Shown here in pieces: positions 53,024 to 57,737 of a stretch of 64,000 bases of DNA (position 1 is the first letter of the stretch; the number at the start of each line of letters is the position of its first letter). The position numbers and the translations under genes are program-made. The notes under the pieces are model-generated. The model saw only the letters and a program-made list of their open reading frames with translations, was not told the origin of the DNA and did no database searches. The DNA comes from Flavobacteriaceae bacterium (GTDB lineage: Bacteria; Bacteroidota; Bacteroidia; Flavobacteriales; Flavobacteriaceae), in assembly GCA_013215105.1 (NCBI GenBank), contig JABSPL010000046.1, positions 1-64,000 of the forward strand. Direction: 5' to 3'.

Positions 53024-53324
53024 TTGATATTAGCTTTAAAATTTGCAAACTTAACTAATTGGCCGATTAATCATTTAATATAAGACGCTTAATTAATACA
53101 ATTGTAACAAGAAAATATTACAAATAAAATAAACGAACAAAAACCAAGGCTTTTCACAAACCTAAAACACTAATTAACAAGCTTATTAGATGTTAATTAT
53201 TTACGATAACATTAACAATATCATCAAAAAACATTAATATAATATTAAATTTTAATACAATAAACTTGTCTTGCCCATGTTTTTTTATGATATTGCAGGC
53301 TTTATAACAAAAAAACAAACCGAC
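53024..53324. other. AT-rich divergent intergenic region
   Basis: These 301 bases separate the sigma unit (-) from the symporter (+). A TAAGTTTG -7 box for the sigma gene lies at 53046-53053. No strong promoter for the symporter is seen. The frame upstream of its ATG is open from a TTG at 53271 (with an ATG at 53277), but the ATG at 53325, which begins a signal peptide, is the better start. Confidence 0.5.
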
Positions 53325-54926
53325 ATGAATAAAAAGATTGTAGCATTGCTACTGATACTAATACCGATACTGACATTTTCTCAAGAAAAAGGTCTCGACC
53401 AAAAAATAGATGAAGCTTTTAAGCCAATTTCAGATTTTATAAGTAACATTATATTCTTCGAAATATTTGGAGGAGCTCCTTTTGTGTTAATACTTTTGGT
53501 AGGTAGTGCATTGTTCTTTACTTTATACTTTGGTTTTCCAAATTTCAGATATTTTGGTAAAGCTATAAATATAGTAAGAGGTAAATACGACGATATAGAA
53601 GGTGCCAAAGAAGGTTCTGGAGAAGATGGAGAGGTTACTCACTTTCAGGCATTGGCTACTGCTGTTTCAGGAACAGTAGGTAACGGTAATATAGCTGGTG
53701 TAGCATTAGCTATCGCTTTAGGTGGTCCTGGTGCAACTTTTTGGATGGTTGTTTGTGGTCTTTTGGGTATGTCTGCTAAGTTTGTAGAATGTACTTTGGG
53801 TGTTCAGTATAGAGATGTTGATGAAGACGGAACTATTCATGGAGGGCCTATGTATTATATATCGAAAGGATTAAAAGAAAGAGGATTTAAAACTCTAGGT
53901 AAAATAGCAGCAGTATTTTTCGCTGTATTTTGTATAGGTGGTTCGTTCGGTGGTGGAAACGCTGCTCAGTCTAACCAAGCAACTATAGTACTTAAAGAAT
54001 TAATGGGACTAGAAAGTTCAAGTGCAGGTGCTTGGATTGGTGTTGTATTAGCTCTATTAGTAGGAGTTATTATAATAGGAGGTATAAAAAGAATAGCTTC
54101 GGTTACCGAAAAAGTAGTGCCTTTTATGGCAGGAATGTATTTGTTAGCTTGTCTATATATATTAGGAGCTAATTTCTCTCTATTAGACGATGCTTTTGCT
54201 CTTATATTCAGAGAAGCATTCACGCCAACTGCGGCAGGTGTAGGTGGTCTTATTGGTGTTCTTTTAGTAGGATTCAAAAGAGCTGCATTCTCTAACGAGG
54301 CTGGTGCAGGTTCTGCGTCTATAGCTCACTCGGCTGTAAAAACTAAATATTCGGCATCGGAAGGATTGGTTGCTTTATTGGAGCCGTTCATCGATACTGT
54401 AGTAATATGTACTATGACAGCACTTGTTATAATAATATTTAACTTCGGAGGTTCTTTTGAATTTGGTTCAATACCTGGGGCAATAGAGCAACTAGACGGA
54501 ACTTTAGATGTTGTAATAAACGGAGTATTACATGAAGATGTTAAAGGTAAAATCCTTATAGGTGGTGAATTATACGAAGGAGCAGGTATTACTTCTAAAG
54601 CATTTGCTGAGTATATTCCTTATTCTAACGTATTCTTGACTATAGCAGTTGTATTGTTCGCAGTATCGACTATGATATCTTGGTCTTACTACGGGTTACA
54701 GTCTTGGAAATACTTATTTGGTAAAGGAAAAGCAGCTGATTTGACTTACAAACTTTTATTCTTAATGTTTGTAGTAATAGGAGCAGCAGCTAGTATGAAA
54801 TCTATATGGGACTTCTCTGATGCAATGATATTTGCAATGGTATTCCCTAATATGATAGGATTATTCTTCCTATTCCCAGTTGTTAAAAAACAACTTAATA
54901 GATTCTTGGAAGCTATTAAAAATTAA
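53325..54926 (+). CDS. Alanine:cation symporter (AGCS family)
   Basis: This is a 533-aa sodium- or proton-coupled amino-acid importer of the AGCS family. The N-terminal MNKKIVALLLILIPILTFSQ looks like a signal peptide, as in many flavobacterial members, followed by about ten membrane helices. Family signatures are GTVGNGNIAGVALAI, GGPMYYISKGL, GGGNAAQSNQA and FSNEAGAGSASIAHSA. I choose the ATG at 53325, which begins the signal peptide; the in-frame ATG at 53277 and TTG at 53271 lie upstream of it. A strong terminator follows (54948-54999), which is itself part of a duplicated sequence. Confidence 0.9.
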   Translation: MNKKIVALLLILIPILTFSQEKGLDQKIDEAFKPISDFISNIIFFEIFGGAPFVLILLVGSALFFTLYFGFPNFRYFGKAINIVRGKYDDIEGAKEGSGEDGEVTHFQALATAVSGTVGNGNIAGVALAIALGGPGATFWMVVCGLLGMSAKFVECTLGVQYRDVDEDGTIHGGPMYYISKGLKERGFKTLGKIAAVFFAVFCIGGSFGGGNAAQSNQATIVLKELMGLESSSAGAWIGVVLALLVGVIIIGGIKRIASVTEKVVPFMAGMYLLACLYILGANFSLLDDAFALIFREAFTPTAAGVGGLIGVLLVGFKRAAFSNEAGAGSASIAHSAVKTKYSASEGLVALLEPFIDTVVICTMTALVIIIFNFGGSFEFGSIPGAIEQLDGTLDVVINGVLHEDVKGKILIGGELYEGAGITSKAFAEYIPYSNVFLTIAVVLFAVSTMISWSYYGLQSWKYLFGKGKAADLTYKLLFLMFVVIGAAASMKSIWDFSDAMIFAMVFPNMIGLFFLFPVVKKQLNRFLEAIKN

Positions 54927-54947
54927 AACATATAATCATTAAATTTT

Positions 54948-54999
54948 AAAACATCCCATTTCTTATACGCTAACGTATAAGAAATGGGATGTTTTTTTT
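54948..54999 (+). terminator. 22-bp terminator hairpin of the symporter gene
   Basis: The arms 54948-54969 and 54974-54995 pair perfectly (22 bp, GC-rich middle CATCCCATTTC) over the loop CTAA and end in a T tract. It is the strongest terminator in the window and is derived from the 5' relic of the helix-hairpin-helix gene. Confidence 0.9.
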
Positions 55000-55027
55000 G
55001 TACTTAATTGTAATTTTTGTATATTTA
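54997..55027 (+). promoter_or_regulatory. Candidate promoter of helix-hairpin-helix gene
   Basis: TTTG (54997-55000), at the end of the T tract of the terminator, 19 nt, then TATATTTA (55020-55027), one mismatch from TAnnTTTG. Transcription would begin about 25 nt before the ATG at 55057. If real, the duplicated relic also supplies the promoter of the intact gene. Confidence 0.5.
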
Positions 55028-55056
55028 TGTGGTTAAACTAATTAAAACATATAGCT

Positions 55057-55902
55057 ATGAAATTTAAAACATCCCATTTCCTGTACAACAAACGTCAGAG
55101 AAATGGGATGTTTTTTTTGTGCTTAATTGTAGTTTTATTAATATTTGTGCAATTATACGCTCCTATAAAACCTAAGTATTATCCCGAAAAACTCGACCCT
55201 GATATAGTTAAATATCAAAAGGTGATAGATTCTTTGAAAGCTAAAAAGTACAAACCAAAGATATATCCTTTCAATCCTAATTTCCTATCAGACTACAAAG
55301 CCAGTAAATGGGGTATGTCTATTGAAGAAATAGATAAGCTACTATCTTTCAGAAAACAAAACAAATACGTTAATAGTGCTAAAGAATTTCAGGAACTAAC
55401 AGGCATAAACGATAGTTTACTTGCTATAATGAGCCCTTATTTCAAATTCCCCGAATGGACTCAAAAGAAATCTTTCAATAAGATAAAAATATATGAAAAA
55501 ATAATAATAAAAGATATAAACAAAGCCACAGCCGAAGAATTAACAGTAATAAAAGGTATAGGGGAAAAACTTTCGGATAGAATAATAAAATACAGAAATG
55601 CAAAACAGTATATAGTAGATATAAATCAACTATATGAAGTATGGGGTATAGATAGTCTAGTAATATATAAAGTAATAAGTAGATTCAAAGTATTAGAAGA
55701 ACCTACTATAAAAAAGATAGACATAAACGAAGCTAGCTTCAAAGAAATACTCAAAACACCTTATATAGACTACGAACTCACCAAGAAAATAATGGATTAC
55801 AAACTAGAAGTTGCAGAAATACAATCTCTATATGAATTAAAAAATATAGAAGGTTTTCCTGCGGATAAGTTCGATATTATTTGTAAATACCTGAAAATAT
55901 AA
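55057..55902 (+). CDS. Helix-hairpin-helix (ComEA-like) protein
   Basis: This 281-aa protein has an N-terminal segment with RQRNGMFFL and one membrane helix (about 17-35), then three helix-hairpin-helix units: FLSDYKASKWGMSIEEIDKLL (about 75-125), DINKATAEELTVIKGIGEKLSDRI (about 150-180) and DINEASFKEILKTPYIDYELT (about 225-275). The family is frequent in Bacteroidota. DNA binding is likely but the role is unknown. Codons 4-21 contain a terminator-like hairpin (55066-55118). Partial relics of the same gene lie on both sides. Confidence 0.85.
   Translation: MKFKTSHFLYNKRQRNGMFFLCLIVVLLIFVQLYAPIKPKYYPEKLDPDIVKYQKVIDSLKAKKYKPKIYPFNPNFLSDYKASKWGMSIEEIDKLLSFRKQNKYVNSAKEFQELTGINDSLLAIMSPYFKFPEWTQKKSFNKIKIYEKIIIKDINKATAEELTVIKGIGEKLSDRIIKYRNAKQYIVDINQLYEVWGIDSLVIYKVISRFKVLEEPTIKKIDINEASFKEILKTPYIDYELTKKIMDYKLEVAEIQSLYELKNIEGFPADKFDIICKYLKI
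55066..55118 (+). terminator. Terminator-like hairpin inside coding sequence
   Basis: Arms 55066-55080 and 55100-55114 (AAAACATCCCATTTC/GAAATGGGATGTTTT) pair perfectly over 15 bp with a 19-nt loop, followed by T8 up to 55118. It lies within codons 4-21 of the helix-hairpin-helix gene. It could terminate transcription early when ribosomes do not cover it. Confidence 0.65.
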
Positions 55903-55957
55903 TTAATTGATCTTAATAATCATACAAAATAGCTAAACAAACACCTTAATATACAAA

Positions 55958-56539
55958 TTAATCTAATAAAGTTAAAGCCAAATCTACCGATGACAACAGA
56001 TTATTTTTATCAGTATCTACTTTAGCTACTATTTTTAGACCTGTATACAGCGTATATATGAGGTTCGTTATAGCTTTTATATCTTTCCCTTTTTCGAATT
56101 GACCTTCTTTCTCTCCTTGTAGAATAAAATTATAGAATATTCTTAACAAATTATCTTTAGTTTTCTTTAAAACAATTAATATATCCTCTTCTCCAGGAAC
56201 AAATTCAGAAATAGAATTAACTACAAAACACCCCTTCCTATCTATATCGTTTATCGAATCGTCTATAGATAGTTCTAATAATTTACGTAAACCTATTTTA
56301 ACATTAGTTTGACTTTTCAAAAAAACGGTAACGGCATTACTACTATTATATATATATTTATCAAAGGCTTTATCGAAAAGCTCTTTTTTACCTCCGAATG
56401 TGTCGTATATACTAGACCTGTTAATACCTAGGTGATTGACCAAATCTTGGATAGAAGTGGCATGATATCCATTTTTCCAAAAAAGATCTATCGCCTTGTT
56501 TAATGTCTCTTCTTCATCAAATAATTTAATTCTTGGCAT
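55958..56539 (-). CDS. TetR/AcrR family repressor
   Basis: This 193-aa regulator has the N-terminal helix-turn-helix ATSIQDLVNHLGINRSSIYDTFGGKKELFDKAFDKY (about residues 28-65) and an effector-binding C-terminal domain (about 80-190). It lies 83 nt downstream of the SDR gene on the same strand and has its own promoter. It probably represses the SDR gene, where GAAC-N4-GTTC boxes flank the -7 element. It lies between the intact helix-hairpin-helix gene and its 3' relic, so the pair looks inserted. Confidence 0.88.
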   Translation of the reverse strand: MPRIKLFDEEETLNKAIDLFWKNGYHATSIQDLVNHLGINRSSIYDTFGGKKELFDKAFDKYIYNSSNAVTVFLKSQTNVKIGLRKLLELSIDDSINDIDRKGCFVVNSISEFVPGEEDILIVLKKTKDNLLRIFYNFILQGEKEGQFEKGKDIKAITNLIYTLYTGLKIVAKVDTDKNNLLSSVDLALTLLD

Positions 56540-56578
56540 AATAAAAAAATGTGGAAATAGATAGTTATTCTAGTTCCA

Positions 56579-56609
56579 CAAATGTAGTTATTTAAAATTG
56601 GTATTCCAA
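56579..56609 (-). promoter_or_regulatory. Promoter of tetR with palindrome
   Basis: On the minus strand TTG (56607-56609), 20 nt, then TACATTTG (56579-56586). The perfect palindrome TTGG-TATT-CCAA (56598-56609) overlaps the -33 box and could be an operator. Confidence 0.65.
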
Positions 56610-56622
56610 TTATGAGTATTTA

Positions 56623-57378
56623 TTAATTCAATACCGAATTGATATTAAGACCTCCATCAATATTATATTCACTTCCTGTAATAAATGAAGATTCATCCGA
56701 TGCTAAAAAAACCACCAAACTAGCTACCTCCTCAGGTTTACCAAATCGTTTCAACGGTATTTTATTAATCATAGCTTCGGCAAATCCCTTTAATTGGTCT
56801 TCTTCCATTCCTGTTTTATTAAAAATAGGAGTTTCTATAGGGCCTGGATTTATAGAATTTACACGTATTTTCCTGCTAGCAAACTCAGTCGAAGCAGTTC
56901 TTGTATATGAATTTAAAGCTGCCTTAGAGGCTGCATAGATCGCCGTATTTGCCATACCTGTATAAGCATTAATAGACGATAAGTTTATTATTGATGCTCC
57001 TTCATTCATAATAGGTGAAAATTTCTCTATAGTAAATACTGCTCCTTTAAAATTAATTCCCATCTGGTTATCAAACATTTCTTGTGAGTTTTGTCCGATT
57101 GGCGCTGGTATAAAAACACCTGCATTCACAAATAAAATATCTATTTTTCCATAAATATCTTTTACTTGTTTCACTAAATTATCAATATCAACAAGCGAAC
57201 TGACATCTGCCACTATACCTTTAACTCCTAATTCGGAGGCTGCCTCATTAACTCTTTCTGTAGACCTACCTACAATAACCACATTCGCTCCATTTTCTTT
57301 CATCTTTTTTGCCGAAGCGTAACCAATACCACTATTACCTCCTGTAACTACAGCAATCTTTCCTTTTAAATCTATCAT
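56623..57378 (-). CDS. SDR family NAD(P)-dependent oxidoreductase
   Basis: This 251-aa classical short-chain dehydrogenase has the dinucleotide motif TGGNSGIGYAS (about 13-23), NAG in FVNAGVF, and catalytic Ser-Tyr-Lys in INLSSINAYTG and YAASKAALN. The C-terminal block FLASDESSFITGSEYNIDGG is typical of 3-oxoacyl-ACP reductase-like SDRs. The substrate is unknown. It has its own strong promoter with two repressor-like boxes and is followed by the tetR gene. Such tetR-SDR pairs often respond to a small electrophile or xenobiotic. Confidence 0.9.
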   Translation of the reverse strand: MIDLKGKIAVVTGGNSGIGYASAKKMKENGANVVIVGRSTERVNEAASELGVKGIVADVSSLVDIDNLVKQVKDIYGKIDILFVNAGVFIPAPIGQNSQEMFDNQMGINFKGAVFTIEKFSPIMNEGASIINLSSINAYTGMANTAIYAASKAALNSYTRTASTEFASRKIRVNSINPGPIETPIFNKTGMEEDQLKGFAEAMINKIPLKRFGKPEEVASLVVFLASDESSFITGSEYNIDGGLNINSVLN

Positions 57379-57503: not shown

Positions 57504-57737
57504 TTTATAGAGGTTGAAGAACCAGATATAATAAAGATAGATATAAACAATGCTAGTTTTAAAGAAATACTTAAAACACCTTATATAGACTATGAATTGA
57601 CCATAAAAACACTCAATTATAAATTGGAATTTGCCGAAATACAATCTCTAGATGAATTAAAAAACATAGAGGGGTTTCCTGCGGATAAGTTCGATATTAT
57701 TTGTGAATACTTAAAAATACAGTATATTTGTCTCTAA
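57504..57737 (+). pseudogene. 3' relic of helix-hairpin-helix gene
   Basis: The frame reads VEEPDIIKIDINNASF, KEILKTPYIDYELT, AEIQSLDELKNIEGFP and ADKFDIICEYLKI, matching the last about 71 residues of the gene at 55057 with roughly 80% identity by eye. No start codon or 5' part is present; a TGA precedes it. The old stop position reads CAG, so the frame continues to TAA at 57735. Its last bases (TATATTTG, 57723-57730) form a -7 box for the next small gene. Confidence 0.82.
57723..57730 (+). promoter_or_regulatory. -7 element of small membrane-protein gene
   Basis: TATATTTG is an exact consensus -7 box, 18 nt before the ATG at 57749. It lies inside the 3' relic of the helix-hairpin-helix gene. 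No clear -33 TTTG is seen at the expected distance. Confidence 0.45.

Follow-up and report, generated by a model that had tools for sequence, protein, structure and literature searches.

The window, a 64-kb stretch of DNA from a member of Flavobacteriaceae, carries a gene of the sodium:alanine symporter family (alsT) followed by a gene for a helix-hairpin-helix (HHH) protein, and two related terminator-like hairpins are found at their junction, one within the first codons of the HHH gene and one in a non-coding relic beside alsT (Table 1).

Table 1. Features of the alsT–HHH region of the window.
Feature	Coordinates	Strand	Description
alsT, sodium:alanine symporter family	53319–54926	+	Na_Ala_symp (PF01235), Pfam E = 6.3e-122; stop codon 54924–54926
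119-bp unit, tandem duplicate of 55040–55158 (junction and HHH 5′ end)	54921–55039	+	Non-coding relic
Relic hairpin	54948–54999	+	Perfect 22-bp stem 54948–54969/54974–54995, 4-nt loop, T8 54992–54999
HHH gene, 281 aa	55057–55902	+	ATG at 55057; hydrophobic N-terminal segment, HHH_3 domains (Pfam E = 3.3e-26)
Coding hairpin and U-tract	55066–55118	+	HHH codons 4–21; stem 55066–55080/55100–55114, T8 55111–55118
3′-end relic of a second HHH copy	57516–57719	+	85% DNA identity; 81% over 74 aa; immediately preceded by stop codons

The 5′ arm of the coding hairpin, AAAACATCCCATTTC, is complementary to the 3′ arm, GAAATGGGATGTTTT, at 15 of 15 positions across a spacer of 19 nt, and the paired codons read TCC CAT TTC ... 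AGA AAT GGG ATG, in agreement with the original prediction, which had placed a perfect 15-bp stem followed by T8 in codons 4–21 of the HHH gene. The last four bases of the stem coincide with the first four T of this run, and four more T follow past the stem. An energy-based terminator scan of the window assigned −23.1 kcal/mol to the coding hairpin and −29.9 kcal/mol to the relic hairpin; both rank among the strongest terminator-like sites in the 64 kb, and the coding hairpin is the sole sense-direction site within the first 30 codons of any open reading frame. It is overlooked by a simple terminator scan because only loops of 3–8 nt are allowed there. When the same protein was recoded synonymously, none of 1000 recodings was equally stable (z = −7.3). 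Comparison of 54500–56000 with the 4227 families of Rfam returned sub-threshold chance matches only, with nothing near any gathering threshold, and sigma-70 promoter patterns near the junction, a pattern that does not cover Bacteroidetes promoters, were as numerous as in shuffled sequence. Judged by its predicted energy, the recoding score, and the covariation described below, the coding hairpin would form a stable stem-loop, as expected of an intrinsic terminator, and a U-rich tract lies directly 3′ of the stem, as T8 in the window and as preferred T-rich codons in relatives. A short loop of about 3–8 nt is a typical, not an essential, trait of intrinsic terminators; the coding copy lacks it, with 19 nt between the perfect arms that are partly filled by inner pairs.

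The relic beside alsT duplicates the 5′ end of HHH. Direct repeats (D1, D6, and D7) link 54921–55039 with 55040–55158 at a spacing of 118–119 and an identity of 83–89%, and the relic matches HHH residues 1–28 at 54% in tblastn, with stops. Its reading frame has been lost and the former loop has become additional stem, so that the lengthening of the same hairpin to 22 bp in a neighboring relic, noted in the original prediction, is substantiated. The relic hairpin begins 21 nt past the alsT stop codon and is likely the working alsT terminator in the genome of the window. Further downstream, the C-terminal HHH relic sits beyond a TetR gene and an SDR gene on the minus strand (55958–57378). The arrangement of the N- and C-terminal relics suggests that an older HHH gene may have been split by, or replaced around, a segment with the intact HHH, TetR, and SDR genes.

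Homologues were taken from genome contigs and from the genomes of relatives, comprising approximately 100 Flavobacteriaceae loci. Their proteins begin with K-S-H-F ... R-(N/S)-G-I-F-F-L, and the underlying DNA is nearly invariant (AAA TCC CAY TTY ... CGA/AGA AAT/AGT GGG ATT). Relative to counts expected from the codon use of each locus itself, TCC encodes Ser in 90 of 93 cases (expected 13.5), GGG encodes Gly in 96 of 97 (expected 12.3), and within the T-tract ATT is preferred over ATA and ATC for Ile (83/87, expected 47.7), TTG or TTA encodes Leu in 92 of 94 cases (expected 61), and TTT encodes the second Phe in 60 of 62 (expected 45.7). The AGT bias at the Asn/Ser site was left out as independent evidence because it is partly inherited from AAT. 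Codon-choice constraint is highest at the paired codons, and elsewhere in the HHH 5′ region there is no comparable block; nor did a synonymous-constraint comparison of the last 100 alsT codons reveal a conserved regulatory block comparable to the hairpin. One alsT serine column approximately 50 codons before the stop shows a high bias as well (AGT in 66/84), which is probably codon-class inheritance. At the first Phe codon past the stem (columns 49–53 of alignment A1), TTC was observed in 48 of 87 loci against 23.6 expected, giving a U-tract of TTTTCTTTTT; this choice may reflect avoidance of a long T run or likeness to TTNTTT, a pause motif described for NusG in B. subtilis (PMC8060035).

Stability was compared with 1000 synonymous recodings per locus; the mean z was −5.4, and 93 of 103 loci reached p ≤ 0.01. 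The few loci without this signal include members of other families (L025, L028, and L029) and Flavobacterium loci with no upstream alsT (L068 and L071). Neither chance nor the protein sequence explains the hairpin. The codons of the motif SHF...R-N/S-G-I-F-F can indeed pair, and a motif of the FNKxERNGI type occurs in another family (L025); however, recoding abolishes the hairpin, codon choice is extreme, and pairing survives in frameless relics, leaving a protein-driven origin with a negligible probability. Both chance and protein by-product are ruled out by the synonymous recoding test.

Relatives show strong covariation at synonymous sites, which the original prediction had named as a check, and together with the recoding test this shows that the terminator-like shape claimed there is under selection. 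In 88 distinct sequences, 98.3% of the cells of an 11-bp core are paired and five pairs are changed on both sides; the covariation score was matched by none of 500 shuffles, and slid registers are less than 60% paired. The His codon varies with the Asn/Ser codon of the opposite arm, CAT occurring with AAT in 40 loci and CAC with AGT in 39, and CAC with AAT in none; an Asn/Ser replacement in one arm is thus offset by a synonymous His change in the other. Pairing is restored by ATC/TAT in L013 and by CCC/GTT in L038 and L077, and the hairpin of L012 is compensated as TTCCATTT/AAATGGAA. Furthermore, whole arms have been rewritten outside the consensus, as CCCC...GGGG in L125 and L137, CCCGTTTC/GAAACGGG in L185 (similarly in L147), CCGTTTCGG/CCGAAACGG in L145, and CCCGCTTTG with AAAGCGGG in L180. 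The inverted repeat with its conserved CCCA/TGGG core would also suit a palindromic DNA-binding site, which is highly improbable as an explanation: among the pairs listed, U-G cells are common (UG 56, GU 8) whereas A-C cells are rare (about five), diverged genera hold the pairing and not the sequence, the spacing is constant, and the T-tract is one-sided. A covariance model of the hairpin found a match at E ≤ 0.1 in 167 of 199 family genomes, sampled at one per genus, the weakest of which may lie outside HHH; the other matches examined are ordinary terminators with centers 34–60 nt beyond a gene end. The model also picks ordinary intergenic terminators with the pattern AAATCCCA...TGGGATTTTT, recurring in the L193–L198 genomes.

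In nearly all homologous loci, alsT lies immediately upstream of HHH, with 6–25 nt (5–95% range) between the alsT stop and the HHH start, and the T-run begins at a median of 68 nt past the alsT stop and 57 nt past the HHH start. The element is accordingly placed just past the gene that it would end, at a T-run distance to be compared with centers at 34–60 nt for the ordinary terminators examined in other genomes of the family. The terminator score exceeded that of recodings at p ≤ 0.02 in 127 of 140 alsT-adjacent loci versus 28 of 52 others, and at p ≤ 0.05 in 131/140 versus 30/52 (Fisher p = 2e-8, in a test that ignores relatedness); the nine adjacent loci without a significant hairpin include the compensated L012. 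On the HHH protein tree, 10 of 16 inferred hairpin losses fall on non-adjacent branches, which make up 23% of the branch length (p = 0.0009). The parsimony count is rough, one "loss," L012, being really a compensated hairpin, and the "no alsT" and "gap" groups are approximate owing to automatic start-codon choice and to loci truncated at contig ends.

Where the gap has widened, another intergenic terminator is frequently found 10–37 nt past the alsT stop (L127, L133, L135, L140, L148, and L150), a different terminator straddles the HHH start in L146, and a new alsT terminator is present in L076, where another transporter gene intervenes. In L135 and L140, the apparent HHH start ATG falls within the T-tract of the replacement terminator. 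No other clear alsT terminator was seen in the gaps of L021/L131, L123, L038, L054, and L075, and the hairpin is retained in the Lutibacter-type loci L031 and L034, although alsT is not adjacent. A gene for an SNF-type sodium-dependent transporter and an open reading frame of approximately 50 codons (MNTSALI...YFFYKVLTTPP...PDSYSDNDD) recur as a pair in L076, L147, L183, L185, L120, L124, L158, and L056, either separating alsT from HHH or replacing alsT and often ending less than approximately 10 nt before HHH. Conserved pairing alone would fit equally well a hairpin that acts after transcription, by blocking 3′ exonucleases or marking a processing site, and thereby sets the alsT:HHH mRNA ratio with no termination of transcription. 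Such a role is unlikely, since T-tract codons are favored (ATT for Ile, TTT for the second Phe, and TTR for Leu), the replacement hairpins of the widened-gap loci also bear T-tracts, and the same covariance model picks ordinary terminators.

A parallel case is found in Arenibacter. Eight loci (L058, L063, L067, L070, L083, L089, L092, and L103) carry a remnant of the HHH N-terminus, interrupted by stops, 0–110 nt past the alsT stop (in L070, for example, SHLKFRKQE*GGIFFLI), and the intact HHH gene lies 258–682 nt away. In these eight genomes, all 72 of 72 cells of nine core pairs of the relic hairpins are paired, five of the eight relics differ from the gene copy by double changes, and predicted stability is higher for the relic hairpins than for those in the genes; in L092, the gene hairpin has one broken pair and the relic hairpin is perfect. 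The distance between the lineages of Arenibacter and of the window suggests that the two duplications were independent. From their sequences, the relics of both argue that selection would keep an RNA hairpin after alsT regardless of whether the DNA is coding. The hairpin is also retained in the HHH gene in seven of the eight Arenibacter species despite the relic copy, which is weak evidence because single-codon residues are common there, about a third of invariant residues having one codon only.

The hairpin probably serves alsT as an intrinsic terminator that lies within the start of HHH, with HHH expressed by read-through, a reading that we place at roughly four in five on the comparative sequence evidence. 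It is best read as an alsT terminator and not primarily as an HHH attenuator because it lies at a near-fixed distance past alsT and tends to follow alsT over HHH; alsT is most likely the gene that it serves. A polymerase exiting alsT would copy the HHH start and then the A-tract, hairpin, and U-tract within approximately 70 nt of the stop codon; the majority of transcripts would end at the U-tract, and the smaller share that continues would yield HHH protein. In the genome of the window, the 119-bp tandem duplication would have given alsT a copy of its own, which, freed from coding, could be improved to 22 bp, the old copy staying in the HHH gene. We infer actual termination, its leakiness, the dependence of HHH on read-through, and low HHH expression. 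The HHH genes for which only TTG or GTG starts are available (19 of 121) agree weakly with the last of these. Counting against the assignment to alsT are the long loop of the coding copy, the few adjacent loci that lack a significant hairpin, its retention in L031 and L034, the gaps with no clear replacement, and the presence of the hairpin in HHH of Arenibacter and of the window although alsT has another, since simple terminator duty needs none.

These retained copies, and those in loci where the SNF-type transporter and small open reading frame precede HHH (L185, L147, and L076), mildly favor some role for HHH itself. Translation-gated attenuation, put forward in the original prediction, would be such a role: a ribosome at the HHH start would cover the 5′ arm and transcription would continue, whereas failure of initiation would end it. 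The stem begins a few to approximately 15 nt past the HHH start and the T-run at the median of 57 nt given above, which, given the footprint of the ribosome, is within the reach of an initiating ribosome, so that ribosome and hairpin should exclude each other and masking by translation is physically plausible. Against this mechanism, no leader peptide fits, since the HHH start lies so close to the alsT stop that there is no room for a leader reading frame, hairpin losses are enriched, by the rough count above, where alsT is no longer adjacent, and the retention in Arenibacter is weak evidence; the mechanism is therefore a possibility below even odds. It is compatible with termination of alsT, and both may coexist. 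More tentative still is a dual-code switch, in which HHH initiation and terminator folding would be mutually exclusive, the gene would gate its own transcription, and RNA pairing would also have shaped the conserved S-H-F and R-N/S-G residues.

The junction provides a family-wide case in which one DNA stretch is under protein and probable transcription-termination constraint together, with synonymous codons and some amino-acid changes tracking RNA pairing, and two natural duplications in which the hairpin persists or improves once coding is gone. Caution is warranted in interpreting conserved N-terminal residues, which may be RNA-driven, and terminator finders that exclude coding regions or long loops overlook such sites. 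Furthermore, a comparative set is at hand for asking whether translation initiation tunes termination.

The element resembles intrinsic (Rho-independent) terminators in its A-tract, stem, and U-tract soon after a stop codon, and ordinary intergenic terminators of the family use near-identical AAATCCCA...TGGGATTTT hairpins. By contrast, the whole element here is contained in the next coding sequence across most of Flavobacteriaceae, and some of the compensatory changes are amino-acid replacements. Trp-type attenuation is a ribosome-dependent control of transcription, and a similar contest between ribosome and terminator hairpin could operate here, albeit without a leader peptide, and any sensing would lie in translation initiation on the structural gene. 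In the literature searched, deep conservation of one coding-internal terminator with codon-level evidence was not found, nor a Term-seq study of Flavobacteria, nor a report of the alsT–HHH junction hairpin, the partial coverage of that literature making this weak evidence of novelty. Leaky terminators in B. subtilis raise the transcription of downstream co-directional genes by read-through (PMC8060035), and read-through would likewise feed the downstream gene here; the difference is that the terminator lies inside the downstream frame, a few to approximately 15 nt from the start, such that initiation and the hairpin would compete for one RNA. Surveys of 3′ ends have mapped ORF-internal and 5′-proximal ends in E. 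coli (PMC7815308) and Z. mobilis (PMC7566282), likewise placing ends and terminators within coding regions, albeit in a single species each. Thus, coding-region terminators and read-through into downstream genes are already known (PMC7815308, PMC7566282, PMC8060035), whereas the present case differs in a terminator-like hairpin held in the start of the next gene family-wide, with compensation that touches the protein.
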